Source of the DNA: Utricularia gibba
Taxonomy: Eukaryota > Streptophyta > Magnoliopsida > Lamiales > Lentibulariaceae
DNA: 59,733 bases
Assembly: GCA_002189035.1 (NCBI GenBank)
Contig: NEEC01000143.1
Location: 1 to 59,733 of the forward strand
Direction of reading: 5' to 3'
Shown piece after piece: positions 1-59,733 of the stretch; position 1 is the first letter of the stretch, and each line of letters opens with the position of its first letter. Both the position numbers and the translations under genes were made by a program. The notes beneath the pieces are model-generated. The model was not told the origin of the DNA and ran no database searches. It saw only the letters and a program-made list of their open reading frames with translations.

Positions 1-3000
1 TACACCATGTCTCTAGTGGCTATTTGATTCTTTTGCCGTGTATTTGTTTGCATCAATTTCGAGAACGAGAAGCACATTATTAAACGCAGCCACCAAGGAA
101 GGACACGTAAGAACACTTTTCGTTGTGGTTTGTTTTTTAATATGTCCACAGTTATGGGACAAACGTAACTCCATATTATACTACTTGGAGCACGAATAGG
201 GCTCCCAATGGTGTGCTATGAAGAGTTAGCTCTGCATGTTTTGGAAGAGGTGCTTCGTGGACAGGATGTGCGACATAGTCATTTCATTGCGCATCACCAT
301 TCGGGTGCAGCCGAAAAATCACACGTGCACTGGATTCGTTAAAAGTAAACATTTTTGCGTACCTGGTGTATAATAGTGTTGGGATAAGTGATGCCACGAA
401 ATTCATGATGTAACATGTGACTTTTTCCATCTTGATCGCATATCGATGAAGTTTGACACCATATGTTTTGGCAGTTGATTGATGCAATTAGTTGCCATGA
501 TACTTCTGATTCTTGATACACCATTCCCATACACCATGTCTCTAGTGGCTATTTGATTCTTTTGCCGTGTATCCCATTTGCATCAATTTCGAGAACGAGA
601 AGCACATTATTAAACGCAGCCACCAAGGAAGGACACGTAAGACACTTTTCGTTGTGGTTTGTTTTTAATATGTCCACAGTTATGGGACAAACGTAACTCC
701 AATTATACTACTTGGAGCACGAATAGGGCTTCCCAATGGTGTGCTATGAAGAGTTAGCATCTGCATGTTTTGGAAGAGGTGCTTCGTGGACCAGGATGTG
801 CGACATAGTCATTTCATTGCGCATCACCATTCGGGGTGCAGCCGAAAATCACACGTACTGGATTCGTTAAAAGTAAACATTTTTGCGTACCTGGAGTATA
901 ATAGTGTTGGGATAAGTGATGCCACGAAATTCATGATGTAACATGTGACTTTTTTCCATCTTGATCGCATATCCGATGAAGTTTGACACATATGTTTGGC
1001 TGTTGATTGATGCAATTAGTTGCCATGATACTTCTGATTCTTGATACACCATTCCCATACACCATGTCTCTAGTGGCTATTTGATTCTTTTGCCGTGTAT
1101 CTTGTTTGCATCAATTTCGAGAACGAGAAGCACATTATTAAACGCAGCCACCAAGGAAGGACACGTAAGACACTTTTCGTTGTGGTTTGTTTTTAATATG
1201 TCCACAGTTATGGGACAAACGTAACTCCAATTATACTACTTGGAGCACGAATAGGGCTCCCAATGGTGTGCTGAAGAGTTAGGCTCTGCATGTTTTGGAA
1301 GAGGTGCTTCGTGGACCAGGATGTGCGACATAGTCATTTCATTGCGCATCACCATTCGGGGTGCAGCCGAAAAATCACACGTTTACTGGATTCGTTAAAA
1401 GTAAACATTTTTGCGTACCTGGTGTATAATAGTGTTGGGATAAGTGATGCCACGAAATTCATGATGTAACATGTGACTTTTTTCCATCTTGATCGCATAT
1501 CCGATGAAGTTTGACACCATATGTTTTGGCAGTTGATTGATGCAATTAGTTGCCATGATACTTCTGATTCTTGATACACCATTCCCATACACCATGTCTC
1601 TAGTGGCTATTTGATTCTTTTGCCGTGTATCCATTTGCATCAATTTCGAGAACGAGAAGCACATTATTAAACGCAGCCACCAAGGAAGGACACGTAAGAC
1701 ACTTTTCGTTGTGGTTTGTTTTTAATATGTCCACAGTTATGGGACAAACGTAACTCCAATTATACTACTTGGAGCACGAATAGGGCTCCCAATGGTGTGC
1801 TAGGAAGAGTTAGCTCTGCATGTTTTGGAAGAGGTGCTTCGTGGACCAGGATGTGCGACATAGTCATTTCATTGCGCATCACCATTCGGGTGCAGCCGAA
1901 AAATCACACGTTTACTGGATTCGTTAAAAGTAAACATTTTTGCGTACCTGTGTATAATAGTGTTGGGATAAGTGATGCCACGAAATTCATGATGTAACAT
2001 GTGACTTTTTCCATCTTGATCGCATATCCGATGAAGTTTGACACCATATGTTTGGCAGTTGATTGATGCAATTAGTTGCCATGATACTTCTGATTCTTGA
2101 TACACCATTCCCATACACCATGTCTCTAGTGGCTATTTGATTCTTTTGCCGTGTATCCCATTTGCATCAATTTCGAGAACGAGAAGCACATTATTAAACG
2201 CAGCCACCAAGGAAGGACACGTAAGACACTTTTCGTTGTGGTTTGTTTTTAATATGTCCACAGTTATGGGACAAACGTAACTCCAAATTATACTACTTGG
2301 AGCACGAATAGGGCTTCCCAATGGTGTGCTATGAAGAGTTAGCATCTGCATGTTTTGGAATAGGTGCTTCGTGGACCAGGATGTGCGACCTAGTCATTTC
2401 ATTGCGCATCACCATTCGGGTGCAGCCGAAAAATCACACGTGCACTGGATTCGTTAAAAGTAAACATTTTTGCGTACCTGGAGTATAATAGTGTTGGGAT
2501 AAGTGATGCCACGAAATTCATGATGTAACATGTGACTTTTTCCATCTTGATCGCATATCCGATGAAGTTTGACACATATGTTTGGCTGTTGATTGATGCA
2601 ATTAGTTGCCATGATACTTCTGATTCTTGATGCACCATTCCCATACACCATGTCTCTAGTGGCTATTTGATTTTTTGCCGTGTATCCATTTGCATCAATT
2701 TCGAGAACGAGAAGCACATTATTAAACGCAGCCACCAAGGAAGGACACGTAAGACACTTTTCGTTGTGGTTTGTTTTTAATATGTCCACAGTTATGGGAC
2801 AAACGTAACTCCAAATTATACTACTTGGAGCACGAATAGGGCTTCCCAATGGTGTGCTATGAAGAGTTAGCATCTGCATGTTTTGGAAGAGGTGCTTCGT
2901 GGACCAGGATGTGCGACATAGTCATTTCATTGCGCATCACCATTCGGGGTGCAGCCGAAAAATCACACGTGCACTGGATTCGTTAAAAGTAAACATTTTT

Positions 3001-6000
3001 GCGTACCTGGAGTATAATAGTGTTGGGATAAGTGATGCCACGAAATTCATGATGTAACATGTGACTTTTTCCATCTTGATCGCATATCCGATGAAGTTTG
3101 ACACCATATGTTTTGGCAGTTGATTGATGCAATTAGTTGCCATGATACTTCTGATTCTTGATACACCATTCCCATACACCATGTCTCTAGTGGCTATTTG
3201 ATTCTTTTGCCGTGTATCCCATTTGCATCAATTTCGAGAACGAGAAGCACATTATTAAACGCAGCCCCACAAGGAAGGACACGTAAGACACTTTTCGTTG
3301 TGGTTTGTTTTTAATATGTCCACAGTTATGGACAAACGTAACTCCAATTATACTACTTGGAGCACGAATAGGGCTCCAATGGTGTGCTATGAAGAGTTAG
3401 GCTCTGCATGTTTTGGAAGAGGTGCTTCGTGGACCGGGATGTGCGACATAGTCATTTCATTGCGCATCACCATTCGGGGTGCAGCCGAAAAATCACACGT
3501 TTACTGGATTCGTTAAAAGTAAACATTTTTGCGTACCTGGTGTATAATAGTGTTGGGATAAGTGATGCCACGAAATTCATGATGTAACATGTGACTTTTT
3601 TCCATCTTGATCGCATATCCGATGAAGTTTGACACATATGTTTGGCTGTTGATTGATGCAATTAGTTGCCATGATACTTCTGATTCTTGATACACCATTC
3701 CCATACACCATGTCTCTAGTGGCTATTTGATTCTTTTGCCGTGTATCTTTTGCATCAATTTCGAGAACGAGAAGCACATTATTAAACGCAGCCACCAAGG
3801 AAGGACACGTAAGACACTTTTCGTTGTGGTTTGTTTTTAATATGTCCACAGTTATGGGACAAACGTAACTCCAATTATACTACTTGGAGCACGAATAGGG
3901 CTCCCAATGGTGTGCTATGAAGAGTTAGGCTCTGCATGTTTTGGAAGAGGTGCTTCGTGGACCAGGATGTGCGACCTAGTCATTTCATTGCGCATCACCA
4001 TTCGGGGTGCAGCCGAAAAATCACACGTGCACTGGATTCGTTAAAAGTAAACATTTTTGCGTACCTGGTGTATAATAGTGTTGGGATAAGTGATGCCACG
4101 AAATTCATGATGTAACATGTGACTTTTTCCATTGATCGCATATCCGATGAAGTTTGACACATATGTTTTGGCTGTTGATTGATGCAATTAGTTGCCATGA
4201 TACTTCTGATTCTTGATACACCATTCCCATACACCATGTCTCTAGTGGCTATTTGATTCTTTTGCCGTGTATCCCATTTGCATCAATTTCGAGAACGAGA
4301 AGCACATTATTAAACGCAGCCACCAAGGAAGGACACGTAAGACACTTTTCGTTGTGGTTTGTTTTTAATATGTCCACAGTTATGGACAAACGTAACTCCA
4401 ATTATACTACTTGGAGCACGAATAGGGCTTCCCAATGGTGTGCTATGAAGAGTTAGCATCTGCATGTTTTGGAAGAGGTGCTTCGTGGACCAGGATGTGC
4501 GACTAGTCATTTCATTGCGCATCACCATTCGGGGTGCAGCCGAAAAATCACACGTGCACTGGATTCGTTAAAAGTAAACATTTTTGCGTACCTGGAGTAT
4601 AATAGTGTTGGGATAAGTGATGCCACGAAATTCATGATGTAACATGTGACTTTTTTCCATCTTGATCGCATATCCGATGAAGTTTGACACCATATGTTTG
4701 GCAGTTGATTGATGCAATTAGTTGCCATGATACTTCTGATTCTTGATACACCATTCCCATACACCATGTCTCTAGTGGCTATTTGATTCTTTTGCCGTGT
4801 ATCCCATTTGCATCAATTTCGAGAACGAGAAGCACATTATTAAACGCAGCCACCAAGGAAGGACACGTAAGACACTTTTCGTTGTGGTTTGTTTTTAATA
4901 TGTCCACAGTTATGGGACAAACGTAACTCCAAATTATACTACTTGGAGCACGAATAGGGCTTCCCAATGGTGTGCTATGAAGTTAGCATCTGCATGTTTT
5001 GGAAGAGGTGCTTCGTGGACCAGGATGTGCGACATAGTCATTTCATTGCGCATCACCATTCGGGGTGCAGCCGAAAAATCACACGTGCACTGGATTCGTT
5101 AAAAGTAAACATTTTTGCGTACCTGGTGTATAATAGTGTTGGGATAAGTGATGCCACGAAATTCATGATGTAACATGTGACTTTTTTCCATCTTGATCGC
5201 ATATCCGATGAAGTTTGACACCATATGTTTGGCTGTTGATTGATGCAATTAGTTGCCATGATACTTCTGATTCTTGATACACCATTCCCATACACCATGT
5301 CTCTAGTGGCTATTTGATTCTTTTGCCGTGTATTTTGCATCAATTTCGAGAACGAGAAGCACATTATTAAACGCAGCCACCAAGGAAGGACACGTAAGAC
5401 ACTTTTCGTTGTGGTTTGTTTTTAATATGTCCACAGTTATGGGACAAACGTAACTCCAATTATACTACTTGGAGCACGAATAGGGCTTCCCAATGGTGTG
5501 CTATGAAGAGTTAGCATCTGCATGTTTTGGAAGAGGTGCTTCGTGGACCAGGATGTGCGACATAGTCATTTCATTGCGCATCACCATTCGGGTGCAGCCG
5601 AAAAATCACACGTGCACTGGATTCGTTAAAAGTAAACATTTTTGCGTACCTGGAGTATAATAGTGTTGGGATAAGTGATGCCACGAAATTCATGATGTAA
5701 CATGTGACTTTTTCCATCTTGATCGCATATCCGATGAAGTTTGACACCATATGTTTTGGCTGTTGATTGATGCAATTAGTTGCCATGATACTTCTGATTC
5801 TTGATACACCATTCCCATACACCATGTCTCTAGTGGCTATTTGATTCTTTTGCCGTGTATCCCATTTGCATCAATTTCGAGAACGAGAAGCACATTATTA
5901 AACGCAGCCACCAAGGAAGGACACGTAAGACACTTTTCGTTGTGGTTTGTTTTTAATATGTCCACAGTTATGGGACAAACGTAACTCCAATTATACTACT

Positions 6001-9000
6001 TGGAGCACGAATAGGCTGCCCAATGGTGTGCTAGGAAGAGTTAGGCTCTGCATGTTTTGGAAGAGGTGCTTCGTGGACCGGATGTGCGACATAGTCATTT
6101 CATTGCGCATCACCATTCGGGTGCAGCCGAAAAATCACACGTTTACTGGATTCGTTAAAAGTAAACATTTTTGCGTACCTGGTGTATAATAGTGTTGGGA
6201 TAAGTGATGCCACGAAATTCATGATGTAACATGTGACTTTTTCCATCTTGATCGCATATCCGATGAAGTTTGACACCATATGTTTTGGCAGTTGATTGAT
6301 GCAATTAGTTGCCATGATACTTCTGATTCTTGATACACCATTCCCATACACCATGTCTCTAGTGGCTATTTGATTCTTTTGCCGTGTATCCCATTTGCAT
6401 CAATTTCGAGAACGAGAAGCACATTATTAAACGCAGCCACCAAGGAAGGACACGTAAGACACTTTTCGTTGTGGTTTGTTTTTAATATGTCCACAGTTAT
6501 GGGACAAACGTAACTCCAATTATACTACTTGGAGCACGAATAGGGCTCCCAATGGTGTGCTATGAAGAGTTAGGCATCTGCATGTTTGGAAGAGGTGCTT
6601 CGTGGACCAGGATGTGCGACATAGTCATTTCATTGCGCATCACCATTCGGGGTGCAGCCGAAAAATCACACGTGCACTGGATTCGTTAAAAGTAAACATT
6701 TTTGCGTACCTGGAGTATAATAGTGTTGGGATAAGTGATGCCACGAAATTCATGATGTAACATGTGACTTTTTTCCATCTTGATCGCATATCCGATGAAG
6801 TTTGACACATATGTTTGGCTGTTGATTGATTCAATTAGTTGCCATGATACTTCTGATTCTTGACACCATTCCCATACACCATGTCTCTAGTGGCTATTTG
6901 ATTCTTTTGCCGTGTATCTTGTTTGCATCAATTTCGAGAACGAGAAGCACATTATTAAACGCAGCCACCAAGGAAGGACACGTAAGACACTTTTCGTTGT
7001 GGTTTGTTTTTAATATGTCCACAGTTATGGGACAAACGTAACTCCAAATTATACTACTTGGAGCACGAATAGGGCTTCCCAATGGTGTGCTATGAAGAGT
7101 TAGCATCTGCATGTTTTGGAAGAGGTGCTTCGTGGACCAGGATGTGCGACATAGTCATTTCATTGCGCATCACCATTCGGGTGCAGCCGAAAAATCACAC
7201 GTGCACTGGATTCGTTAAAAGTAAACATTTTTGCGTACCTGGTGTATAATAGTGTTGGGATAAGTGATGCCACGAAATTCATGATGTAACATGTGACTTT
7301 TTTCCATCTTGATCGCATATCCGATGAAGTTTGACACCATATGTTTTGGCTGTTGATTGATGCAATTAGTTGCCATGATACTTCTGATTCTTGATACACC
7401 ATTCCCATACACCATGTCTCTAGTGGCTATTTGATTCTTTTGCCGTGTATCCCATTTGCATCAATTTCGAGAACGAGAAGCACATTATTAAACGCAGCCA
7501 CCAAGGAAGGACACGTAAGACACTTTTCGTTGTGGTTTGTTTTTAATATGTCCACAGTTATGGGACAAACGTAACTCCAATTATACTACTTGGAGCACGA
7601 ATAGGGCTCCCAATGGTGTGCTATGAAGAGTTAGCTCTGCATGTTTTGGAAGAGGTGCTTCGTGGACCAGGATGTGCGACATAGTCATTTCATTGCGCAT
7701 CACCATTCGGGGTGCAGCCGAAAAATCACACGTGCACTGGATTCGTTAAAAGTAAACATTTTTGCGTACCTGGAGTATAATAGTGTTGGGATAAGTGATG
7801 CCACGAAATTCATGATGTAACATGTGACTTTTTTCCATCTTGATCGCATATCCGATGAAGTTTGACACCATATGTTTTGGCAGTTGATTGATGCAATTAG
7901 TTGCCATGATACTTCTGATTCTTGATACACCATTCCCATACACCATGTCTCTAGTGGCTATTTGATTCTTTTGCCGTGTATCCCATTTGCATCAATTTCG
8001 AGAACGAGAAGCACATTATTAAACGCAGCCACCAAGGAAGGACACGTAAGACACTTTTCGTTGTGGTTTGTTTTTAATATGTCCACAGTTATGGGACAAA
8101 CGTAACTCCAATTATACTACTTGGAGCACGAATAGGGCTTCCCAATGGTGTGCTATGAAGAGTTAGCTCTGCATGTTTTGGAAGAGGTGCTTCGTGGACC
8201 AGGATGTGCGACATAGTCATTTCATTGCGCATCACCATTCGGGGTGCAGCCGAAAAATCACACGTTTACTGGATTCGTTAAAAGTAAACATTTTTGCGTA
8301 CCTGGAGTATAATAGTGTTGGGATAAGTGATGCCACGAAATTCATGATGTAACATGTGACTTTTTCCATCTTGATCGCATATCCGATGAAGTTTGACACC
8401 ATATGTTTTGGCTGTTGATTGATGCAATTAGTTGCCATGATACTTCTGATTCTTGATACACCATTCCCATACACCATGTCTCTAGTGGCTATTTGATTCT
8501 TTTGCCGTGTATCCCATTTGCATCAATTTCGAGAACGAGAAGCACATTATTAAACGCAGCCACCAAGGAAGGACACGTAAGACACTTTTCGTTGTGGTTT
8601 GTTTTTAATATGTCCGCAGTTATGGGACAAACGTAACTCCAAATTATACTACTTGGAGCACGAATAGGGCTTCCCAATGGTGTGCTATGAAGAGTTAGCA
8701 TCTGCATGTTTTGGAAGAGGTGCTTCGTGGACCAGGATGTGCGACCTAGTCATTTCATTGCGCATCACCATTCGGGGTGCAGCCGAAAAATCACACGTGC
8801 ACTGGATTCGTTAAAAGTAAACATTTTTGCGTACCTGGAGTATAATAGTGTTGGGATAAGTGATGCCACGAAATTCATGATGTAACATGTGACTTTTTTC
8901 CATCTTGATCGCATATCCGATGAAGTTTGACACATATGTTTGGCTGTTGATTGATGCAATTAGTTGCCATGATACTTCTGATTCTTGATACACCATTCCC

Positions 9001-12000
9001 ATACACCATGTCTCTAGTGGCTATTTGATTCTTTTGCCGTGTATCTTGTTTGCATCAATTTCGAGAACGAGAAGCACATTATTAAACGCAGCCACCAAGG
9101 AAGGACACGTAAGACACTTTTCGTTGTGGTTTGTTTTTAATATGTCCACAGTTATGGGACAAACGTAACTCCAATTATACTACTTGGAGCACGAATAGGG
9201 CTTCCCAATGGTGTGCTATGAAGAGTTAGCTCTGCATGTTTTGGAAGAGGTGCTTCGTGGACCAGGATGTGCGACATAGTCATTTCATTGCGCATCACCA
9301 TTCGGGTGCAGCCGAAAAATCACACGTTTACTGGATTCGTTAAAAGTAAACATTTTTGCGTACCTGGAGTATAATAGTGTTGGGATAAGTGATGCCACGA
9401 AATTCATGATGTAACATGTGACTTTTTCCATCTTGATCGCATATCCGATGAAGTTTGACACATATGTTTTGGCAGTTGATTGATGCAATTAGTTGCCATG
9501 ATACTTCTGATTCTTGATACACCATTCCCATACACCATGTCTCTAGTGGCTATTTGATTCTTTTGCCGTGTATTTTTGCATCAATTTCGAGAACGAGAAG
9601 CACATTATTAAACGCAGCCACCAAGGAAGGACACGTAAGACACTTTTCGTTGTGGTTTGTTTTTAATATGTCCACAGTTATGGGACAAACGTAACTCCAA
9701 ATTATACTACTTGGAGCACGAATAGGGCTTCCCAATGGTGTGCTATGAAGAGTTAGGCTCTGCATGTTTTGGAAGAGGTGCTTCGTGGACCAGGATGTGC
9801 GACATAGTCATTTCATTGCGCATCACCATTCGGGGTGCAGCCGAAAAATCACACGTGCACTGGATTCGTTAAAAGTAAACATTTTTGCGTACCTGGTGTA
9901 TAATAGTGGGATAAGTGATGCCACGAAATTCATGATGTAACATGTGACTTTTTCCATCTTGATCGCATATCCGATGAAGTTTGACACCATATGTTTTGGC
10001 TGTTGATTGATGCAATTAGTTGCCATGATACTTCTGATTCTTGATACACCATTCCCATACACCATGTCTCTAGTGGCTATTTGATTCTTTTGCCGTGTAT
10101 CTTGTTTGCATCAATTTCGAGAACGAGAAGCACATTATTAAACGCAGCCACCAAGGAAGGACACGTAAGACACTTTTCGTTGTGGTTTGTTTTTAATATG
10201 TCCACAGTTATGGACAAACGTAACTCCATATTATACTACTTGGAGCACGAATAGGGGCCCAATGGTGTGCTAGGAAGAGTTAGCTCTGCATGTTTTGGAA
10301 GAGGTGCTTCGTGGACCAGGATGTGCGACATAGTCATTTCATTGCGCATCACCATTCGGGGTGCAGCCGAAAAATCACACGTGCACTGGATTCGTTAAAA
10401 GTAAACATTTTTGCGTACCTGGAGTATAATAGTGTTGGGATAAGTGATGCCACGAAATTCATGATGTAACATGTGACTTTTTTCCATCTTGATCGCATAT
10501 CCGATGAAGTTTGACACATATGTTTGGCTGTTGATTGATGCAATTAGTTGCCATGATACTTCTGATTCTTGATACACCATTCCCATACACCATGTCTCTA
10601 GTGGCTATTTGATTCTTTTGCCGTGTATCCTTGTTTGCATCAATTTCGAGAACGAGAAGCACATTATTAAACGCAGCCACCAAGGAAGGACACGTAAGAC
10701 ACTTTTCGTTGTGGTTTGTTTTTAATATGTCCACAGTTATGGGACAAACGTAACTCCAATTATACTACTTGGAGCACGAATAGGGCTCCCAATGGTGTGC
10801 TATGAAGAGTTAGCTCTGCATGTTTTGGAAGAGGTGCTTCGTGGACCAGGATGTGCGACATAGTCATTTCATTGCGCATCACCATTCGGGGTGCAGCCGA
10901 AAAATCACACGTTACTGGATTCGTTAAAAGTAAACATTTTTGCGTACCTGGTGTATAATAGTGTTGGGATAAGTGATGCCACGAAATTCATGATGTAACA
11001 TGTGACTTTTTCCATCTTGATCGCATATCCGATGAAGTTTGACACCATATGTTTTGGCTGTTGATTGATGCAATTAGTTGCCATGATACTTCTGATTCTT
11101 GATACACCATTCCCATACACCATGTCTCTAGTGGCTATTTGATTCTTTTGCCGTGTATCATTTGCATCAATTTCGAGAACGAGAAGCACATTATTAAACG
11201 CAGCCACCAAGGAAGGACACGTAAGACACTTTTCGTTGTGGTTTGTTTTTAATATGTCCACAGTTATGGGACAAACGTAACTCCAATTATACTACTTGGA
11301 GCACGAATAGGGCTCCCAATGGTGTGCTATGAAGAGTTAGCTCTGCATGTTTTGGAAGAGGTGCTTCGTGGACCAGGATGTGCGACATAGTCATTTCATT
11401 GCGCATCACCATTCGGGGTGCAGCCGAAAAATCACACGTGCACTGGATTCGTTAAAAGTAAACATTTTTGCGTACCTGGTGTATAATAGTGTTGGGATAA
11501 GTGATGCCACGAAATTCATGATGTAACATGTGACTTTTTCCATCTTGATCGCATATCCGATGAAGTTTGACACCATATGTTTTTGGCTGTTGATTGATGC
11601 AATTAGTTGCCATGATACTTCTGATTCTTGATACACCATTCCCATACACCATGTCTCTAGTGGCTATTTGATTCTTTTGCCGTGTATCATTTGCATCAAT
11701 TTCGAGAACGAGAAGCACATTATTAAACGCAGCCACCAAGGAAGGACACGTAAGACACTTTTCGTTGTGGTTTGTTTTTAATATGTCCAAGTTATGGGAC
11801 AAACGTAACTCCAATTATACTACTTGGAGCACGAATAGGGCTTCCCAATGGTGTGCTATGAAGAGTTAGCATCTGCATGTTTTGGAAGAGGTGCTTCGTG
11901 GACCAGGATGTGCGACATAGTCATTTCATTGCGCATCACCATTCGGGTGCAGCCGAAAAATCACACGTGCACTGGATTCGTTAAAAGTAAACATTTTTGC

Positions 12001-15000
12001 GTACCTGGTGTATAATAGTGTTGGGATAAGTGATGCCACGAAATTCATGATGTAACATGTGACTTTTTCCATCTTGATCGCATATCCGATGAAGTTTGAC
12101 ACCATATGTTTGGCTGTTGATTGATGCAATTAGTTGCCATGATACTTCTGATTCTTGATACACCATTCCCATACACCATGTCTCTAGTGGCTATTTGATT
12201 CTTTTGCCGTGTATCCCATTTGCATCAATTTCGAGAACGAGAAGCACATTATTAAACGCAGCCACCAAGGAAGGACACGTAAGACACTTTTCGTTGTGGT
12301 TTTTTTTTAATATGTCCACAGTTATGGGACAAACGTAACTCCATATTATTACTTGGAGCACGAATAGGGCTTCCCAATGGTGTGCTATGAAGAGTTAGGC
12401 TCTGCATGTTTTGGAAGAGGTGCTTCGTGGACCAGGATGTGCGACATAGTCATTTCATTGCGCATCACCATTCGGGTGCAGCCGAAAAATCACACGTGCA
12501 CTGGATTCGTTAAAAGTAAACATTTTTGCGTACCTGGAGTATAAATAGTGTTGGGATAAGTGATGCCACGAAATTCATGATGTAACATGTGACTTTTTTC
12601 CATCTTGATCGCATATCCGATGAAGTTTGACACCATATGTTTTGGCAGTTGATTGATGCAATTAGTTGCCATGATACTTCTGATTCTTGATACACCATTC
12701 CCATACACCATGTCTCTAGTGGCTATTTGATTCTTTTGCCGTGTATCCATTTGCATCAATTTCGAGAACGAGAAGCACATTATTAAACGCAGCCACCAAG
12801 GAAGGACACGTAAGACACTTTTCGTTGTGGTTGTTTTTTAATATGTCCACAGTTATGGGACAAACGTAACTCCAAATTATACTACTTGGAGCACGAATAG
12901 GGCTTCCCAATGGTGTGCTATGAAGAGTTAGCATCTGCATGTTTTGGAATAGGTGCTTCGTGGACCAGGATGTGCGACCTAGTCATTTCATTGCGCATCA
13001 CCATTCGGGGTGCAGCCGAAAAATCACACGTGCACTGGATTCGTTAAAAGTAAACATTTTTGCGTACCTGGAGTATAATAGTGTTGGGATAAGTGATGCC
13101 ACGAAATTCATGATGTAACATGTGACTTTTTTCCATCTTGATCGCATATCCGATGAAGTTTGACACATATGTTTGGCTGTTGATTGATTCAATTAGTTGC
13201 CATGATACTTCTGATTCTTGATACACCATTCCCATACACCATGTCTCTAGTGGCTATTTGATTCTTTTGCCGTGTATCCTTTGCATCAATTTCGAGAACG
13301 AGAAGCACATTATTAAACGCAGCCACCAAGGAAGGACACGTAAGACACTTTTCGTTGTGGTTTGTTTTTAATATGTCCACAGTTATGGGACAAACGTAAC
13401 TCCAAATTATACTACTTGGAGCACGAATAGGGCTTCCCAATGGTGTGCTATGAAGAGTTAGCATCTGCATGTTTTGGAAGAGGTGCTTCGTGGACCAGGA
13501 TGTGCGACCTAGTCATTTCATTGCGCATCACCATTCGGGTGCAGCCGAAAAATCACACGTGCACTGGATTCGTTAAAAGTAAACATTTTTGCGTACCTGG
13601 AGTATAATAGTGTTGGGATAAGTGATGCCACGAAATTCATGATGTAACATGTGACTTTTTCCATCTTGATCGCATATCCGATGAAGTTTGACACATATGT
13701 TTGGCTGTTGATTGATTCAATTAGTTGCCATGATACTTCTGATTCTTGATACACCATTCCCATACACCATGTCTCTAGTGGCTATTTGATTCTTTTGCCG
13801 TGTATCTTGTTTGCATCAATTTCGAGAACGAGAAGCACATTATTAAACGCAGCCACCAAGGAAGGACACGTAAGACACTTTTCGTTGTGGTTTGTTTTTA
13901 ATATGTCCACAGTTATGGGACAAACGTAACTCCAATTATACTACTTGGAGCACGAATAGGGCTCCCAATGGTGTGCTATGAAGAGTTAGCATCTGCATGT
14001 TTTGGAAGAGGTGCTTCGTGGACCAGGATGTGCGACATAGTCATTTCATTGCGCATCACCATTCGGGTGCAGCCGAAAAATCACACGTGCACTGGATTCG
14101 TTAAAAGTAAACATTTTTGCGTACCTGGTGTATAATAGTGTTGGGATAAGTGATGCCACGAAATTCATGATGTAACATGTGACTTTTTTCCATCTTGATC
14201 GCATATCCGATGAAGTTTGACACCATATGTTTTGGCAGTTGATTGATGCAATTAGTTGCCATGATACTTCTGATTCTTGATACACCATTCCCATACACCA
14301 TGTCTCTAGTGGCTATTTGATTCTTTTGCCGTGTATCCCATTTGCATCAATTTCGAGAACGAGAAGCACATTATTAAACGCAGCCACCAAGGAAGGACAC
14401 GTAAGACACTTTTCGTTTGTGGTTTGTTTTTAATATGTCCACAGTTATGGGACAAACGTAACTCCAAATTATACTACTTGGAGCACGAATAGGGCTTCCC
14501 AATGGTGTGCTATGAAGAGTTAGCATCTGCATGTTTTGGAAGAGGTGCTTCGTGGACCAGGATGTGCGACATAGTCATTTCATTGCGCATCACCATTCGG
14601 GGTGCAGCCGAAAAATCACACGTGCACTGGATTCGTTAAAAGTAAACATTTTTGCGTACCTGGAGTATAATAGTGTTGGATAAGTGATGCCACGAAATTC
14701 ATGATGTAACATGTGACTTTTTTCCATCTTGATCGCATATCCGATGAAGTTTGACACAATATGTTTCGGCTGTTGATTGATTCAATTAGTTGCCATGATA
14801 CTTCTGATTCTTGATACACCATTCCCATACACCATGTCTCTAGTGGCTATTTGATTCTTTTGCCGTGTATCCCATTTGCATCAATTTCGAGAACGAGAAG
14901 CACATTATTAAACGCAGCCACCAAGGAAGGACACGTAAGACACTTTTCGTTGTGGTTTGTTTTTAATATGTCCACAGTTATGGGACAAACGTAACTCCAA

Positions 15001-18000: not shown

Positions 18001-18018
18001 ATACACCATTCCTACACC
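1..18018. repeat. Array segment I: mixed-lineage monomers, mean ~530 bp
   Basis: It holds 34 complete monomers starting at 7, 536, 1064, 1594, 2120, 2650, 3181, 3710, 4236, 4766, 5297, 5824, 6353, 6881, 7414, 7945, 8476, 9008, 9537, 10064, 10592, 11122, 11651, 12178, 12710, 13241, 13769, 14300, 14834, 15368, 15901, 16430, 16962 and 17493; bases 1-6 are the tail of the previous copy. Lengths are 526-534 bp. Two monomer lineages are interleaved. Minor-lineage markers (GTTTAC, GGTGTA, GGCAG, CTAGGAAG, CCAATT or CCATATT) are scattered through the segment together with the GACCTAG variant. No regular higher-order period was apparent from these markers. Confidence 0.93.
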
Positions 18019-38141: not shown

Positions 38142-38276
38142 CACGAATAGGGCTTCCCAATGGTGTGCTATGAAGAGTTAGCATCTGCATGTTTTGGAAG
38201 AGGTGCTTCGTGGACCAGGATGTGCGACATAGTCATTTCATTGCGCATCACCATTCGGGGTGCAGCCGAAAAATCA

Positions 38277-38285
38277 CACGTGCAC
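38277..38285. other. Overlapping palindromes CACGTG and GTGCAC, polymorphic site
   Basis: Majority monomers read CACGTGCAC, which contains two overlapping hexamer palindromes. CACGTG is the E-box/G-box core known to be bound by bHLH and bZIP proteins in eukaryotes. The minor lineage reads CACGTTTAC, which destroys both palindromes and also the 5-bp inverted pair GTGCA (38260-38264) / TGCAC (38281-38285). Binding is not implied by the sequence. Confidence 0.6.
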
Positions 38286-46000: not shown

Positions 46001-46474
46001 AACGAGAAGCACATTATTAAACGCAGCCACCAAGGAAGGACACGTAAGACACTTTTCGTTGTGGTTTGTTTTTAATATGTCCACAGTTATGGGACAAACG
46101 TAACTCCAAATTATACTTCTTGGAGCACGAATAGGGCTTCCCAATGGTGTGCTATGAAGAGTTAGCATCTGCATGTTTTGGAAGAGGTGCTTCGTGACCA
46201 GGATGTGCGACATAGTCATTTCATTGCGCATCACCATTCGGGTGCAGCCTAAAAATCACACGTGCACTGGATTCGTTAAAAGTAAACATTTTTGCGTACC
46301 TGGAGTATAATAGTGTTGGGATAAGTGATGCCACGAAATTCATGATGTAACATGTGACTTTTTTCCATCTTGATCGCATATCCGATGAAGTTTGACACCA
46401 TATGTTTTGGCTGTTGATTGATGCAATTAGTTGCCATGATACTTCTGATTCTTGATACACCATTCCCATACACC

Positions 46475-48298
46475 ATGTCTCTAGTGGCTATTTGATTCTT
46501 TTGCCGTGTATCCCATTTGCATCAATTTCGAGAACGAGAAGCACATTATTAAACGCAGCCACCAAGGAAGGACACGTAAGACACTTTTCGTTGTGGTTTG
46601 TTTTTAATATGTCCAGTTATGGGACAAACGTAACTCCAAATTATACTACTTGGAGCACGAATAGGGCTTCCCAATGGTGTGCTATGAAGAGTTAGCATCT
46701 GCATGTTTTGGAAAGGTGCTTCGTGGACCAGGATGTGCGACATAGTCATTTCATTGCGCATCACCATTCGGGTGCAGCCGAAAAATCACACGTGCACTGG
46801 ATTCGTTAAAAGTAAACATTTTTGCGTACCTGGAGTATAATAGTGTTGTGGATGTAACATGTGACTGATCGCATATCCGATGAAGTTTGACACCATATGA
46901 TTGATTGATGCAATTAGTTGCCATGATACTTCTGATTCTTTTCCCATACACCATGTCTCTAGTGGCTATTTGATTCTTTTGCCGTGTATATCATCAATTT
47001 CGAGAACGAGAAGCACATTATTAAACGCAGCCACCAAGGAAGGACACGTAAGACACTTTTCGTTGTGGTTTGTTTTTAATATGTCCAGTTATGGACAAAC
47101 GTAACTCCAAATTATACTACTTGGAGCACGAATAGGGCTTCCCAATGGTGTGCTATGAAGAGTTAGCATCTGCATGTTTTGGAAGAGGTGCTTCGTGGAC
47201 CAGGATGTGCGAGTCATTTCATTGCGCATGTGCACTGGATTCGTTCGTACCTGGAGTATAATAGTGTTGGGATAAGTGATGCCACGAAATTCATGATGTA
47301 ACATGTGACTTTTTTCCATCTTGATCGCATATCCGATGAAGTTTGACACCTGTTGATTGATCAATTAGTTGCCATGATACTTCTGATTCTTGGTCTCTAG
47401 TGGCTATTTGATTCTTTTGCCGTGTATCCATCAATTTCGAGAACGAGAAGCACATTATTAAACGCAGCCACCAAGGAAGGACACGTAAGACACTTTTCGT
47501 TGTGGTTTGTTTTTAATATGAACAAACGTAGGAGCACGAATAGGGCAATGGTGTGCTATTTAGCTCTGCATGTTTTGGAACTTCGTGGACCAGGATGTGC
47601 GACATAGTCATTTCATTGCGCATCACCATTCGGAGCCGAAAAATCACACGGCACTGGATTCGTTAAAAGTAAACATTTTTGCGTACCTTTCCACGAAATT
47701 CATGATGTAACATGTGACTTGATCGCATATCCGATGAAGTTTGACACCATATGTTTTGGCCAATTAGTTGCCATGATACTTCTGATTCTTGGTCTCTAGT
47801 GGCTATTTGATTCAAATCAATTTCGAGAACGAGAAGCACATTATTAAACGCAGCCACCAAGGAAGGACACGTAAGACACTTTTCGTTGTGGTTTGTTTTT
47901 AATATGTCCACAGTTACAAACGTAACTCCAAATTATACTACTTGGAGCACGAATAGGGCTTCCCAATGGTGTGCTATGAAGAGTTAGCATCTGCATGTTT
48001 TGGAAGAGGTGCTTCGTGGACCAGGATGTGCGACATAGTCATTTCATTGCGCATCACCATTCGGGGTGCAGCCGAAAAATCACACGTGCACTGGATTCGT
48101 TAAAAGTAAACATTTTTGCGTACCTGGAGTATAATAGTGTTGGGATAAGTGATGCCACGAAATTCATGATGTAACATGTGACTTTTTTCCATCTTGATCG
48201 CATATCCGATGAAGTTTGACACAATATGTTTTGGCTGTTGATTGATTCAATTAGTTGCCATGATACTTCTGATTCTTGATACACCATTCCCATACACC
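46475..48298. repeat. Array segment IV: four consecutive eroded monomers (478, 438, 399, 509 bp)
   Basis: Copies start at 46475, 46953, 47391 and 47790; the last two lack ATGTC and are anchored on GTCTCTAG. Each lacks several separate blocks of about 5-35 bp while the retained parts match the consensus closely. Examples are loss between GTGTTG and TGTAAC near 46848, loss of the T-run block between GTGAC and GATCGCAT near 46866, loss of about 30 bp between GCGCAT and GTGCACTGG near 47229, loss of 22 bp around the monomer boundary near 47391 and again near 47790, loss between AATATG and ACAAACG near 47520, and loss between GATTC and ATCAATTTC near 47815. Both sides return to normal copies. Either a genuine multi-deletion cluster or a poorly supported consensus join. 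Confidence 0.9.
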
Positions 48299-51200
48299 AT
48301 GTCTCTAGTGGCTATTTGATTCTTTTGCCGTGTATCTTTGCATCAATTTCGAGAACGAGAAGCACATTATTAAACGCAGCCACCAAGGAAGGACACGTAA
48401 GACACTTTTCGTTGTGGTTTGTTTTTAATATGTCCAGTTATGGGACAAACGTAACTCCAAATTATACTACTTGGAGCACGAATAGGGCTTCCCAATGGTG
48501 TGCTATGAAGAGTTAGCATCTGCATGTTTTGGAAGAGGTGCTTCGTGGACCAGGATGTGCGACATAGTCATTTCATTGCGCATCACCATTCGGGTGCAGC
48601 CGAAAAATCACACGTGCACTGGATTCGTTAAAAGTAAACATTTTTGCGTACCTGGAGTATAATAGTGTTGGGATAAGTGATGCCACGAAATTCATGATGT
48701 AACATGTGACTTTTTTCCATCTTGATCGCATATCCGATGAAGTTTGACACCATATGTTTTGGCAGTTGATTGATGCAATTAGTTGCCATGATACTTCTGA
48801 TTCTTGATACACCATTCCCATACACCATGTCTCTAGTGGCTATTTGATTCTTTTGCCGTGTATCCCATTTGCATCAATTTCGAGAACGAGAAGCACATTA
48901 TTAAACGCAGCCACCAAGGAAGGACACGTAAGACACTTTTCGTTGTGGTTTGTTTTTAATATGTCCACAGTTATGGGACAAACGTAACTCCAAATTATAC
49001 TACTTGGAGCACGAATAGGGCTTCCCAATGGTGTGCTATGAAGAGTTAGCTCTGCATGTTTTGGAAGAGGTGCTTCGTGGACCAGGATGTGCGACATAGT
49101 CATTTCATTGCGCATCACCATTCGGGGTGCAGCCGAAAAATCACACGTGCACTGGATTCGTTAAAAGTAAACATTTTTGCGTACCTGGAGTATAATAGTG
49201 TTGGGATAAGTGATGCCACGAAATTCATGATGTAACATGTGACTTTTTCCATCTTGATCGCATATCCGATGAAGTTTGACACCATATGTTTTGGCAGTTG
49301 ATTGATGCAATTAGTTGCCATGATACTTCTGATTCTTGATACACCATTCCCATACACCATGTCTCTAGTGGCTATTTGATTCTTTTGCCGTGTATCCCAT
49401 TTGCATCAATTTCGAGAACGAGAAGCACATTATTAAACGCAGCCACCAAGGAAGGACACGTAAGACACTTTTCGTTGTGGTTTGTTTTTAATATGTCCAC
49501 AGTTATGGGACAAACGTAACTCCAAATTATACTACTTGGAGCACGAATAGGGCTTCCCAATGGTGTGCTATGAAGAGTTAGCATCTGCATGTTTTGGAAG
49601 AGGTGCTTCGTGACCAGGATGTGCGACATAGTCATTTCATTGCGCATCACCATTCGGGTGCAGCCGAAAAATCACACGTGCACTGGATTCGTTAAAAGTA
49701 AACATTTTTGCGTACCTGGAGTATAATAGTGTTGGGATAAGTGATGCCACGAAATTCATGATGTAACATGTGACTTTTTTCCATCTTGATCGCATATCCG
49801 ATGAAGTTTGACACCATATGTTTTGGCTGTTGATTGATGCAATTAGTTGCCATGATACTTCTGATTCTTGATACACCATTCCCATACACCATGTCTCTAG
49901 TGGCTATTTGATTCTTTTGCCGTGTATCCCATTTGCATCAATTTCGAGAACGAGAAGCACATTATTAAACGCAGCCACCAAGGAAGGACACGTAAGACAC
50001 TTTTCGTTGTGGTTTGTTTTTAATATGTCCACAGTTATGGGACAAACGTAACTCCAAATTATACTTCTTGGAGCACGAATAGGGCTTCCCAATGGTGTGC
50101 TATGAAGAGTTAGCATCTGCATGTTTTGGAAGAGGTGCTTCGTGGACCAGGATGTGCGACATAGTCATTTCATTGCGCATCACCATTCGGGTGCAGCCTA
50201 AAAATCACACGTGCACTGGATTCGTTAAAAGTAAACATTTTTGCGTACCTGGAGTATAATAGTGTTGGGATAAGTGATGCCACGAAATTCATGATGTAAC
50301 ATGTGACTTTTTTCCATCTTGATCGCATATCCGATGAAGTTTGACACAATATGTTTGGCTGTTGATTGATGCAATTAGTTGCCATGATACTTCTGATTCT
50401 TGATACACCATTCCCATACACCATGTCTCTAGTGGCTATTTGATTCTTTTGCCGTGTATCTTTTTGCATCAATTTCGAGAACGAGAAGCACATTATTAAA
50501 CGCAGCCACCAAGGAAGGACACGTAAGACACTTTTCGTTGTGGTTTGTTTTTAATATGTCCACAGTTATGGGACAAACGTAACTCCAATTATACTACTTG
50601 GAGCACGAATAGGGCTTCCCAATGGTGTGCTATGAAGAGTTAGCTCTGCATGTTTTGGAAGAGGTGCTTCGTGGACCGGATGTGCGACATAGTCATTTCA
50701 TTGCGCATCACCATTCGGGGTGCAGCCGAAAAATCACACGTTTACTGGATTCGTTAAAAGTAAACATTTTTGCGTACCTGGTGTATAATAGTGTTGGGAT
50801 AAGTGATGCCACGAAATTCATGATGTAACATGTGACTTTTTCCATCTTGATCGCATATCCGATGAAGTTTGACACCATATGTTTTGGCAGTTGATTGATG
50901 CAATTAGTTGCCATGATACTTCTGATTCTTGATACACCATTCCCATACACCATGTCTCTAGTGGCTATTTGATTCTTTTGCCGTGTATCCCATTTGCATC
51001 AATTTCGAGAACGAGAAGCACATTATTAAACGCAGCCACCAAGGAAGGACACGTAAGACACTTTTCGTTGTGGTTTGTTTTTAATATGTCCCAGTTATGG
51101 GACAAACGTAACTCCAAATTATACTACTTGGAGCACGAATAGGGCTTCCCAATGGTGTGCTATGAAGAGTTAGCTCTGCATGTTTTGGAAGAGGTGCTTC

Positions 51201-53609: not shown

Positions 53610-56600
53610 ATGTCTCTAGTGGCTATTTGATTCTTTTGCCGTGTATCCCATTTGCATCAATTTCGAGAACGAGAAGCACATTATTAAACGCAGCCACCAA
53701 GGAAGGACACGTAAGACACTTTTCGTTGTGGTTTGTTTTTAATATGTCCACAGTTATGGGACAAACGTAACTCCAAATTATACTACTTGGAGCACGAATA
53801 GGGCTTCCCAATGGTGTGCTATGAAGAGTTAGCATCTGCATGTTTTGGAAGAGGTGCTTCGTGGAGGATGTGCGACATAGTCATTTCATTGCGCATCACC
53901 ATTCGGGTGCAGCCGAAAAATCACACGTGCACTGGATTTTAAAAGTAAACATTTTTGCGTACCTGGAGTATAATAGTGTTGGGATAAGTGATGCCACGAA
54001 ATTCATGATGTAACATGTGACTTTTTTCCATCTTGATCGCATATCCGATGAAGTTTGACACCATATGTTTTGGATGTTGATTGATGCAATTAGTTGCCAT
54101 GATACTTCTGATTCTTGATACACATTCCCATACACCATGTCTCTAGTGGCTATTTGATTCTTTTGCCGTGTATCCATTTGCATCAATTTCGAGAACGAGA
54201 AGCACATTATTAAACGCAGCACCAAGGAAGGACACGTAAGACACTTTTCGTTGTGGTTTGTTTTTAATATGTCCACAGTTATGGGACAAACGTAACTCCA
54301 ATTATACTACTTGGAGCACGAATAGGGCTGCCCAATGGTGTGCTAGGAAGAGTTAGCTCTGCATGTTTTGGAAGAGGTGCTTCGTGGACCGGGATGTGCG
54401 ACATAGTCATTTCATTGCGCATCACCATTCGGGTGCAGCCGAAAAATCACACGTGCACTGGATTCGTTAAAAGTAAACATTTTTGCGTACCTGGAGTATA
54501 ATAGTGTTGGGATAAGTGATGCCACGAATTCATGATGTAACATGTGACTTTTTCATCTTGATCGCATATCCGATGAAGTTTGACACCATATGTTTTGGCT
54601 GTTGATTGATGCAATTAGTTGCCATGATACTTCTGATTCTTGATACACCATTCCCATACACCATGTCTCTAGTGGCTATTTGATTCTTTTGCCGTGTATC
54701 CATTTGCATCAATTTCGAGAACGAGAAGCACATTATTAAACGCAGCCACCAAGGAAGGACACGTAAGACACTTTTCGTTGTGGTTTGTTTTTAATATGTC
54801 CACAGTTATGGGACAAACGTAACTCCAAATTATACTACTTGGAGCACGAATAGGGCTTCCCAATGGTGTGCTATGAAGAGTTAGCATCTGCATGTTTTGG
54901 AAGAGGTGCTTCGTGACCAGGATGTGCGACCTAGTCATTTCATTGCGCATCACCATTCGGGTGCAGCCGAAAAATCACACGTGCACTGGATTCGTTAAAA
55001 GTAAACATTTTTGCGTACCTGGTGTATAATAGTGTTGGGATAAGTGATGCCACGAAATTCATGATGTAACATGTGACTTTTTTCCATCTTGATCGCATAT
55101 CCGATGAAGTTTGACACATATTTTGGGCTGTTGATTGATGCAATTAGTTGCCATGATACTTCTGATTCTTGATACACCATTCCCATACACCATGTCTCTA
55201 GTGGCTATTTGATTCTTTTGCCGTGTATCCATTTGCATCAATTTCGAGAACGAGAAGCACATTATTAAACGCAGCCACCAAGGAAGGACGTAAGACACTT
55301 TTCGTTGTGGTTTGTTTTTAATATGTCCACAGTTATGGGACAAACGTAACTCCAAATTATACTACTTGGAGCACGAATAGGGCTTCCCAATGGTGTGCTA
55401 TGAAGATTAGCATCTGCATGTTTTGGAAGAGGTGCTTCGTGCCAGGATGTGCGACATAGTCATTTCATTGCGCATCACCATTCGGGGTGCAGCCGAAAAA
55501 TCACACGTGCACTGGATTCGTTAAAAGTAAACATTTTTGCGTACCTGGAGTATAATAGTGTTGGGATAAGTGATGCCACGAAATTCATGATGTAACATGT
55601 GACTTTTTTCCATCTTGATCGCATATCCGATGAAGTTTGACACCATATGTTTTGGCTGTTGATTGATGCAATTAGTTGCCATGATACTTCTGATTCTTGA
55701 TACACCATTCCCATACACCATGTCTCTAGTGGCTATTTGATTCTTTTGCCGTGTATCCATTTGCATCAATTTCGAGAACGAGAAGCACATTATTAAACGC
55801 AGCCACCAAGGAAGGACACGTAAGACACTTTTCGTTGTGGTTTGTTTTTAATATGTCCACAGTTATGGGACAAACGTAACTCCAAATTATACTACTTGGA
55901 GCACGAATAGGGCTTCCAATGGTGTGCTATGAAGAGTTAGCATCTGCATGTTTTGGAAGAGGTGCTTCGTGGACCAGGATGTGCGACATAGTCATTTCAT
56001 TGCGCATCACCATTCGGGGTGCAGCCGAAAAATCACACGTGCACTGGATTCGTTAAAAGTAAACATTTTTGCGTACCTGGTGTATAATAGTGTTGGGATA
56101 AGTGATGCCACGAAATTCATGATGTAACATGTGACTTTTTCCATCTTGATCGCATATCGATGAAGTTTGACACCATATGTTTTGGCTGTTGATTGATGCA
56201 ATTAGTTGCCATGATACTTCTGATTCTTGATACACCATTCCATACACCATGTCTCTAGTGGCTATTTGATTCTTTTGCCGTGTATCTTTGCATCAATTTC
56301 GAGAACGAGAAGCACATTATTAAACGCAGCCACAAGGAAGGACACGTAAGACACTTTTCGTTGTGGTTTGTTTTTAATATGTCCACAGTTATGGGACAAA
56401 CGTAACTCCAAATTATACTACTTGGAGCACGAATAGGGCTTCCAATGGTGTGCTAGAAGAGTTAGCATCTGCATGTTTTGGAAGAGGTGCTTCGTGGACC
56501 AGGATGTGCGACATAGTCATTTCATTGCGCATCACCATTCGGGGTGCAGCCGAAAAATCACACGTGCACTGGATTCGTTAAAAGTAAACATTTTTGCGTA

Positions 56601-59600
56601 CCTGGAGTATAATAGTGTTGGGATAAGTGATGCCACGAAATTCATGATGTAACATGTGACTTTTTTCCATCTTGATCGCATATCCGATGAAGTTTGACAC
56701 CATATGTTTTGGCTGTTGATTGATGCAATTAGTTGCCATGATACTTCTGATTCTTGATGCACCATTCCCATACACCATGTCTCTAGGGCTATTTGATTCT
56801 TTTGCCGTGTATCTTGTTGCATCAATTTCGAGAACGAGAAGCACATTATTAAACGCAGCCACCAAGGAAGGACACGTAAGACACTTTTCGTTGTGGTTTG
56901 TTTTTAATATGTCCACAGTTATGGACAAACGTAACTCCAAATTATACTACTTGGAGCACGAATAGGGCTTCCCAATGGTGTGCTATGAAGAGTTAGCATC
57001 TGCATGTTTTGGAAGAGGTGCTTCGTGGACCAGGATGTGCGACATAGTCATTTCATTGCGCATCACCATTCGGGGTGCAGCCGAAAAATCACACGTGCAC
57101 TGGATTCGTTAAAAGTAAACATTTTTGCGTACCTGGTGTATAATAGTGTTGGGATAAGTGATGCCACGAAATTCATGATGTAACATGTGACTTTTTTCCA
57201 TCTTGATCGCATATCCGATGAAGTTTGACACCATATGTTTTGGCTGTTGATTGATGCAATTAGTTGCCATGATACTTCTGATTCTTGATACCCATTCCCT
57301 ACACCATGTCTCTAGTGGCTATTTGATTCTTTTGCCGTGTATCTTTGCATCAATTTCGAGAACGAGAAGCACATTATTAAACGCAGCCACCAAGGAAGGA
57401 CACGTAAGACACTTTTCGTTGTGGTTTGTTTTTAATATGTCCACAGTTATGGGACAAACGTAACTCCAAATTATACTCTTGGAGCACGAATAGGCTTCCC
57501 AATGGTGTGCTATGAAGAGTTAGGATCTGCATGTTTTGGAAGAGGTGCTTCGTGACAGGATGTGCGACCTAGTCATTTCATTGCGCATCACCATTCGGGT
57601 GCAGCCTAAAAATCACACGTGCACTGGATTCGTTAAAAGTAAACATTTTTGCGTACCTGGAGTATAATAGTGTTGGGATAAGTGATGCCACGAAATTCAT
57701 GATGTAACATGTGACTTTTTTCCATCTTGATCGCATATCCGATGAAGTTTGACACATATGTTTTGGCTGTTGATTGATGCAATTAGTTGCCATGATACTT
57801 CTGATTCTTGATACACCATTCCCATACACCATGTCTCTAGTGGCTATTTGATTCTTTTGCCGTGTATCTTGGCATCAATTTCGAGAACGAGAAGCACATT
57901 ATTAAACGCAGCCACCAAGGAAGGACACGTAAGACACTTTTCGTTGTGGTTTGTTTTTAATATGTCCACAGTTATGGGACAAACGTAACTCCAAATTATA
58001 CTACTTGGAGCACGAATAGGGCTTCCCAATGGTGTGCTATGAAGAGTTAGCATCTGCATGTTTTGGAAGGTGCTTCGTGACCAGGATGTGCGACATAGTC
58101 ATTTCATTGCGCATCACCATTCGGGGTGCAGCCTAAAAATCACACGTGCACTGGATTCGTTAAAAGTAAACATTTTTGCGTACCTGGAGTATAATAGTGT
58201 TGGGATAAGTGATGCCACGAAATTCATGATGTAACATGTGACTTTTTTTCCATCTTGATCGCATATCCGATGAAGTTTGACACATATGTTTTGGATGTTG
58301 ATTGATGCAATTAGTTGCCATGATACTTCTGATTCTTGATACACCATTCCATACACCATGTCTCTAGTGGCTATTTGATTCTTTTGCCGTGTATCTTTTG
58401 CATCAATTTCGAGAACGAGAAGCACATTATTAAACGCAGCCACAAGGAAGGACACGTAAGACACTTTTCGTTGTGGTTTGTTTTTAATATGTCCAGTTAT
58501 GGGACAAACGTAACTCAATTATACTACTTGGAGCACGAATAGGGCTTCCCAATGGTGTGCTAGGAAGTTAGGCTCTGCATGTTTTGGAAGAGGTGCTTCG
58601 TGGACCGGGATGTGCGACATAGTCATTTCATTGCGCATCACCATTCGGGGTGCAGCCGAAAATCACACGTGCACTGGATTCGTTAAAGTAAACATTTTTG
58701 CGTACCTGGTTAATAGTGTTGGGATAAGTGATGCCACGAAATTCATGATGTAACATGTGACTTTTTTCCATCTTGATCGCATATCCGATGAAGTTTGACA
58801 CATATGTTTTGGCTGTTGATTGATGCAATTAGTTGCCATGATACTTCTGATTCTTGATACACCATTCCCATACACCATGTCTCTAGTGGCTATTTGATTC
58901 TTTTGCCGTGTATCTTGCATCAATTTCGAGAACGAGAAGCACATTATTAAACGCAGCCACCAAGGAAGGACACGTAAGACACTTTTCGTTGTGGTTTGTT
59001 TTTAATATGTCCAGTTATGGACAAACGTAACTCAAATTATACTACTTGGAGCGAATAGGGCTTCCCAATGGTGTGCTATGAAGAGTTAGCTCTGCATGTT
59101 TTGGAAGAGGTGCTTCGTGACCGGATGTGCGACATAGTCATTTCATTGCGCATCACCATTCGGGTGCAGCCTAAAAATCACACGTGCACTGGATTCGTTA
59201 AAAGTAAACATTTTTGCGTACCTGGAGTATAATAGTGTTGGGATAAGTGATGCCACGAAATTCATGATGTAACATGTGACTTTTTTCCATCTTGATCGCA
59301 TATCGATGAAGTTTGACACCATATGTTTTGGATGTTGATTGATGCAATTAGTTGCCATGATACTTCTGATTCTTGATACACCATTCCCATACACCATGTC
59401 TCTAGTGGCTATTTGATTCTTTTGCCGTGTATCTTGTTTGCATCAATTTCGAGAACGAGAAGCACATTATTAAACAGCCACCAAGGAAGGACACGTAAGA
59501 CACTTTTCGTTGTGGTTTGTTTTTAATATGTCCACAGTTATGGACAAACGTAACTCCAATTATACTACTTGGAGCACGAATAGGGCTTCCCAATGGTGTG

Positions 59601-59733
59601 CTAGGAAGAGTTAGCTCTGCATGTTTGGAAGAGGTGCTTCGTGGACGGGATGTGCGACATAGTCATTTCATTGCGCATCACCATTCGGTGCAGCCGAAAA
59701 ATCACACGTTTACTGGATTCGTTAAAAGTAAAC
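53610..59733. repeat. Array segment VI: mixed, shortened monomers and a truncated final copy
   Basis: It holds eleven complete monomers starting at 53610, 54137, 54663, 55192, 55720, 56249, 56777, 57306, 57831, 58358 and 58877, plus the first 338 bp of a copy starting at 59396 that is cut by the window edge. Lengths are 519-529 bp, mean 526. Minor-lineage alleles return: GGTGTA near 55022, 56079 and 57136, GACCTAG near 54928 and 57568, CTAGGAAG and GACCGGG near 54350-54390, and GTTTAC near 59709. Losses of one to three bases rise again, as in segment II. Confidence 0.9.
59396..59733. repeat. Truncated last monomer (window edge), minor lineage
   Basis: The copy carries CTTGTTTGC, ATGGAC, CCAATT, CTAGGAAG, AGCTCTG, GACGGG and GTTTAC, so it belongs clearly to the minor lineage. 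It ends at the window border in the GTTAAAAGTAAAC stretch, so the truncation reflects the window and not biology. Confidence 0.93.

Follow-up and report, generated by a model that had tools for sequence, protein, structure and literature searches.

Satellite arrays in centromeric or other heterochromatin are a known class of plant DNA. The stretch analyzed here, referred to as the window, comprises 59,733 nucleotides (positions 1-59733) of contig 185 in an assembly of 100.09 Mb and 516 contigs. It is filled by an array of the same general type, arranged head-to-tail with monomers of a few hundred bases; the array takes up all of this contig, and stretches of the repeat are present on ten others. 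At a number of sites its monomers carry one of two alternative bases or lack the base altogether, a state termed here the null. The nulls are concentrated where copies disagree, particularly where one of the two alleles lengthens an adjoining run of identical bases, and are very probably consensus errors that come from the merging of near-identical satellite copies in assembly.

Indel errors of such kind are already known in kind. The collapsed assembly of Trypanosoma brucei contains indel errors where, according to the part of PMC8445201 consulted, nearby allelic variants caused wrong read alignments. The window shares with that case the location of indels at allelic differences, which are blamed there on misaligned reads of merged sequences; the Trypanosoma brucei case involves two haplotypes, whereas the window contains many satellite copies. 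The dependence on adjoining runs and the longest-common-subsequence form, both described below, were measured here; they are absent from the text of PMC8445201 that was examined, and no further search for the run dependence was made. A second parallel is the run-length-encoded consensus of Shasta, in which repeat counts are chosen separately from bases (PMC7483855, in the portion consulted). Separate decisions of this type, simulated on mixed copies, yield the observed null states, but the suspected source here is an HGAP assembly of PacBio reads, without sign of a run-length-encoded caller. The Utricularia gibba assembly was built from PacBio reads with HGAP and final Quiver polishing, 581 contigs being the printed number in the available part of PMC5793159; the corresponding part of PMC6982007 gives a genome of 101 Mb and GenBank accessions NEEC01000001-NEEC01000518.

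The satellite array and its null states

The array occupies the following interval.

1..59733, + strand: tandem array of 534-bp satellite monomers over the entire window, comprising 112 full intervals and two partial ends

The exact anchor GTTGCCATGATACTTCTG has 113 matches, which delimit the 112 full intervals; 111 of these entered the alignment, the exception being one of 399 bp. The majority monomer is 534 bp long, and all intervals but the 399-bp one (111/112) measure 451-534 bp; the monomers are near-identical, head-to-tail, and of constant period. An earlier sequence-only reading, which counted 114 copies, was about right.

That reading also listed 13 sites with two alleles and an exact null. 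All 13 triplets are present in the window, and each of the 19 coordinates it quoted was recovered to within 1 base. Window counts are given below in the order allele, allele, null, with short flanks required.

CCCATTTGC 45, CTTGTTTGC 15, null CTTTGC 10 (example null at 34270..34275, + strand)
GTGCAC 94, GTTTAC 12, null GTAC 1 (example null at 855..858, + strand, both discordant bases gone)
GCTTCCC 79, GCTGCCC 4, null GCTCCC 12 (GCTGCCC 5 without flanks, the copy at 6015 included)
CTATGAAG site: 98, 12, 1
CCAAATT 77, CCATATT 6, null CCAATT 27
GACATAG 100, GACCTAG 10, null GACTAG 2
GTCCACAG 87, GTCCGCAG 6, null GTCCCAG 2 (example null at 51088..51094, + strand; rare, with no matching neighbor base)
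GCCGAAA 93, GCCTAAA 15, null GCCAAA 1
GATGCAATT site: 97, 14, 1
CGTGGACC site: 86, 3, 9
ACTACTT 101, ACTTCTT 5, null ACTCTT 1
GGAAGAGG site: 106, 4, 2
ACACCATATG site: 68, 12, 29

For each of the 13 triplets, the longest common subsequence of the two competing alleles is exactly the null. Five of the nulls are seen once and three twice, so the "dozen sites" of the sequence-only reading take in many rare states. The states at multi-base sites look like the bases of one allele combined with the run lengths of the other: beside CCCATTT and CTTGTTT there are CTTT, CTTTT, CCATTT, CATTT, and CCTTT.

A comparable series is seen at columns 181-190, where all loci together show CCACA, CCGCA, and CCAAA alongside CCA (17 copies), CCAA (5), and CCCA (2). 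Each of the three shorter states forms a common subsequence of two longer ones, which suggests that three forms are mixed there.

Deletions at variable columns and adjoining runs

The enrichment of deletions was measured on the 111 aligned intervals, counting unambiguous 1-bp deletions in 294 isolated columns outside the homopolymers of the majority monomer. Of 64 such deletions, 42 lie on 17 columns with at least 3 substitutions, 6 on 6 columns with 1-2 substitutions, and 16 on 271 invariant columns. At least one deletion is found in 14/17 variable columns versus 16/271 invariant ones (Fisher p ~4e-13), and column permutation reaches its lower limit for 20,000 shuffles, p = 5e-5. With 42/64 deletions on 17/294 columns, indels are thus concentrated on substitution sites even when homopolymers are excluded, and the result that the sequence-only reading had named as its refutation did not occur.

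The same concentration is seen in a comparison of the window with nine other satellite contigs, taken whole or in part (374 intervals, 22 of the original 396 having been dropped because they fell outside 430-600 bp). In each of these 10 contigs, 1-bp deletions number 7-47 per 1000 copies at the contig's own variable columns versus 0.17-2.1 at invariant columns, the lowest contig rate, that of contig 216, being based on 1 event. Column 203 illustrates the shift between contigs: the counts of T, A, and null are 6/27/12 in contig 171 and 4/18/11 in contig 320 versus 108/0/1 in the window, where the lone null sits within a 5-base loss. The nulls therefore move with the polymorphism and are not bound to fixed hot spots in the monomer. 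Over 14 run-adjacent sites, nulls amount to 33/1871 when the contig lacks one allele and to 6.9-9.7% when it has both.

Variable sites were then classed by whether an allele equals the neighboring base and so lengthens a run. For these class counts, as for the run counts, the CC/GG block counts, and two of the three parts dealing with blocks, allele presence, and backgrounds, a further 12 monomers, each carrying over 25 substitutions, were excluded. Null rates at isolated sites are as follows.

Neither allele matches the neighbor: 18/1962 (0.92%)
Alternative allele matches: 101/1981 (5.1%)
Reference allele matches: 55/620 (8.9%)
Both alleles match: 61/456 (13.4%)

Sites beside another variable column show nulls in 2/504 (neither), 20/360 (alternative), and 70/848 (reference) cases. 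Nulls are about 5 to 15 times commoner where an allele extends the adjoining run, so the loss depends on alignment or run-length ambiguity around the site. Several non-adjacent columns are free or almost free of them: 0/116 at column 27, 1/236 at column 229, 0/236 at column 235, 0/178 at column 400, and 2/305 at column 408. In 236 copies each, column 235 (A/C) has 0 nulls versus 32 at column 203 (T/A). The first 17.5 kb of the window contain nulls in 56/384 cases at adjacent sites versus 0/160 at non-adjacent sites, although the latter carry 28 substitutions there. This contrast, together with the null-free non-adjacent columns, shows that omission does not follow from copy disagreement alone. 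General dropping of bases wherever copies differ is accordingly rejected, columns 27, 229, 235, 400, and 408 being almost null-free. Base omission is tied to alignment or run-length ambiguity, which refines the consensus-artefact explanation. The rule is statistical: at least one null is found in 14/54 non-adjacent contig-by-column cases.

The opposite outcome, a "double" containing both bases, occurs only 10 times versus 306 distinct nulls, and all 10 are at adjacent sites. The figure of 306 is 336 minus the GG run at columns 298 and 299, which was counted twice (30 each), and it includes ordinary run shortening. Insertions of a third base, taken as a control, do not occur at adjacent sites (0), whereas non-adjacent ones have 35 (column 354, 12; column 408, 1; column 415, 22); those at the three columns are probably real insertion variants.

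The runs themselves differ in the same way. Invariant AA runs lose a base in 2/5033 cases (0.04%) and invariant TT runs in 8/7900 (0.10%), while invariant CC and GG runs are shortened in 1.1% and 1.2%. Among 2-base runs that touch a variable column, shortening reaches 0.8% for AA, 7.2% for CC, 8.3% for GG, and 6.6% (32/485) for TT. Since AA and TT runs lose bases so rarely when invariant, ordinary run shortening is insufficient for most runs.

The haplotype background and the general error level were also examined. The column 203 nulls are distributed by columns 229 and 235 as 17 on TC, 8 on AA, and 7 on the mixed TA background and are thus not tied to one haplotype; mixed backgrounds account for 7/32 nulls versus 13/195 called alleles (p 0.012). 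The number of nulls per monomer correlates with deletions in 16 other runs (rho 0.51; partial 0.45 given substitutions), a yardstick for generic sequencing or consensus errors consisting of runs picked by hand, all of which have few substitutions or none in the window.

Columns 203, 229, and 235, together with columns 116 and 193, carry the largely linked variants of a second satellite subfamily, found on contigs 157, 165, 171, 216, 285, 318, 319, and 320. None of these variants is present as a substitution in the window.

Probable consensus errors and rival explanations

A simple sequence of events very probably accounts for these states. Reads from distinct satellite copies, separated by only a few substitutions per 534-bp monomer, would be stacked at one contig position. 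Where they disagree and one allele lengthens the adjoining run, as in ACGTAACTC versus ACGAAACTC, the disagreement would be scored in part as an absent base and in part as a difference in run length. With base and run length settled by separate or split votes, the output would mix both alleles and match neither: it would carry the bases of the allele that merges with the run, but at the reduced run length belonging to the other allele, giving ACGAACTC.

This scheme was simulated by drawing reads from a two-allele mixture and passing them to several toy consensus callers, with null rates given in the order of the four site classes above (neither, alternative, reference, both). Run-length voting with run shortening gives rates of 0, 0.17, 0.17, and 0.22, with 3 doubles to 252 nulls; 109/840 of its non-adjacent outcomes are "other," matching neither allele and being no null or double across the flanks tested. 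For column voting with cheap gaps and run shortening, the rates are 0.05, 0.22, 0.21, and 0.25. The Spearman correlations with the observed rates at 19 sites are 0.75 and 0.74, respectively, the observed counts having been entered by hand with a denominator of 237 for column 229, where the true value is 236. Under some settings, simple voting callers thus reproduce the dependence on adjoining runs, and in these models the artefact is possible and of the right form under some callers.

Other settings and some of the counts weigh against it. Without shortening, run-length voting gives only 0, 0.05, 0.04, and 0.05, with 14 doubles to 66 nulls, more doubles than observed. High-error column voting yields 0.30 at adjacent versus 0.24 (indel-only) and 0.28 (cheap-gap) at non-adjacent sites; both forms were rejected, as they produce nulls without the adjacency rule. 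Affine-gap voting produces no nulls in the high-error set and about 1-2% at adjacent sites in the other set. Maximum-likelihood calling, with an insertion-rich or a deletion-rich read model, was likewise set aside after 1/760 and 0/760 nulls; it was meant to mimic a Quiver-type polisher, with parameters chosen here rather than Quiver's own. As the callers disagree, the explanation depends on the type of caller. In the contigs, nulls appear in only 36/57, 14/19, and 10/12 adjacent contig-by-column cases (60/88), and the 0.92% at non-adjacent sites exceeds the level of invariant columns, although pure run-length voting yields none there. Longer runs do not follow the rule, TTT being shortened in 1/362 cases at variable columns versus 7/1590 invariant ones and AAAA in 1/192 versus 1/170. 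The phase test at column 203 is modest (p 0.012). Mixed reads as the input and the identity of the program are both inferred, the likeliest source being HGAP-type preassembly of PacBio reads, provided that the contigs belong to the long-read assembly of Utricularia gibba.

Still, the omission of bases by a consensus, which the sequence-only reading proposed as the cause, gains support from nulls that follow polymorphism contig by contig, occur on both backgrounds, covary with run deletions, and arise in simulation under some settings. The missing bases are in all likelihood not a real biological feature.

Transient misalignment, or dislocation, mutagenesis produces substitutions that copy the neighboring base and single-base deletions at the same sites. 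Nulls of this origin, inherited as alleles and spread by homogenization of the array, would likewise depend on a matching neighbor base, and some nulls are indeed frequent, with 29 copies at ACACATATG. This origin is nevertheless unlikely: at multi-base sites all discordant bases vanish together (GC/TT leaving nothing; CCCA/CTTG leaving C), both haplotype backgrounds carry nulls, contigs without one of the alleles show them at a rate about 4 to 5.5 times lower, and nulls vary together with deletions in other runs.

Ordinary shortening of the longer-run allele, with no role for copy disagreement, is somewhat less likely still. The frequent single-base nulls beside runs equal one allele with its run one base shorter, invariant CC and GG runs also shorten, and for TTT and AAAA runs an adjoining variable column brings no extra shortening. 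Yet the rise from the invariant AA and TT levels to those at variable columns, and the corresponding CC and GG values, exceed what such shortening would give, and neither the multi-base nulls nor the rare non-adjacent ones (GTCCCAG, GGAAAGG, and GCCAAA) represent a shortened run.

It is very improbable, too, that a real process in the plant deletes bases where satellite copies differ, by dislocation synthesis across a mismatch beside a matching base during copy-to-copy exchange, and so makes third, null alleles that are amplified later. A real deletion at that step would explain the adjacency and the mosaic backgrounds but not the covariation with deletions in other runs.

Biological removal of mismatched bases from inter-copy heteroduplex DNA, with deletion exactly at the discordant base, would fit deletions on discordant bases in the 10 contigs and the excess of column 203 nulls on mosaic copies, as at the ends of conversion tracts, but is very unlikely and the least probable of all, since it should ignore the neighboring base, whereas nulls are 0/236 at column 235 versus 32/236 at column 203, are absent from columns 27, 235, and 400 even in contigs with both alleles (0/116, 0/236, and 0/178), and covary with other run deletions and low-quality blocks. 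The sequence-only reading had already rated it the less likely alternative. We know of no mismatch-removing process of this kind, although no search was made for one.

As consensus errors, the nulls have no importance as biology and call for practical caution in satellite studies. Where satellite contigs derive from noisy long reads, a single-base indel at a variable site cannot be taken for a monomer variant until the reads have been checked; false nulls would inflate gene-conversion signals as well as apparent haplotype diversity and indel rates. A simple test for the artefact follows from the adjacency rule, namely the comparison of null rates at run-extending and non-extending variable sites.

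Quality blocks and other observations

Along the window, the following blocks can be distinguished.

1..17500, + strand: substitution-rich block; the adjacent and non-adjacent counts given above (56/384 and 0/160) come from 12 and 5 sites, respectively, and 9 invariant CC runs are without deletion
17500..29600, + strand: low-quality block, with many 1-base losses in invariant CC runs and nulls
29600..46400, + strand: most uniform block, with few substitutions, run deletions, and nulls
46400..48300, + strand: ragged stretch with successive monomers of 487, 451, 399, and 487 bp and many short multi-base omissions, looking like a poorly built consensus
53700..59733, + strand: second low-quality block, with CC-run deletions and nulls in 16/108 adjacent and 0/45 non-adjacent cases

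Monomers starting at 17500-29000 have nulls in 34/264 adjacent and 3/110 non-adjacent cases, and those starting at 29000-46400 in 19/396 and 1/165.

One C is missing in 28/981 cells of the nine CC runs scored as invariant, in every case within 17500-29600 or 53700-59733, and the six invariant GG runs of the window show 0/654 losses. This loss, confined to CC, is a strand-biased error and perhaps stems from thin read support on one strand. A general tendency of the assembly to strand-specific run errors was set aside, strong invariant CC loss being found only in the window; contigs of opposite orientation show CC loss in 2/1296 and GG loss in 1/864 cases, events too few to discriminate. At column 193 (TATGGGAC), GGG is shortened to GG in 13/111 window copies, and the C allele of other contigs is absent there. 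A second GGG run, at column 236, is shortened in 3 window copies. The shortening at column 193 would fit leakage of reads from other arrays into the window contig.

A 27-mer of the satellite occurs in 843 exact copies in the assembly (391 and 452 on the two strands), and satellite stretches beyond the window are found on at least 10 contigs (157, 165, 171, 195, 202, 216, 285, 318, 319, and 320), of which all but contig 202 were compared here. The exact 27-mer has 0 records in viral_contigs and genome_contigs, which cover viruses and prokaryotes only, and an Rfam scan of window positions 1-3000 gave no match at the gathering threshold.

Outside the satellite contigs, COX1 is found in two pieces on contig 515, which extends over at least 185.8 kb. 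The first piece, at 583-2226 of the examined stretch, runs in frame into an intron-like reading frame that presumably contains LAGLIDADG-like stretches. The encoded protein is, we assume, angiosperm-like, and the split is taken to be the known angiosperm cox1 intron.

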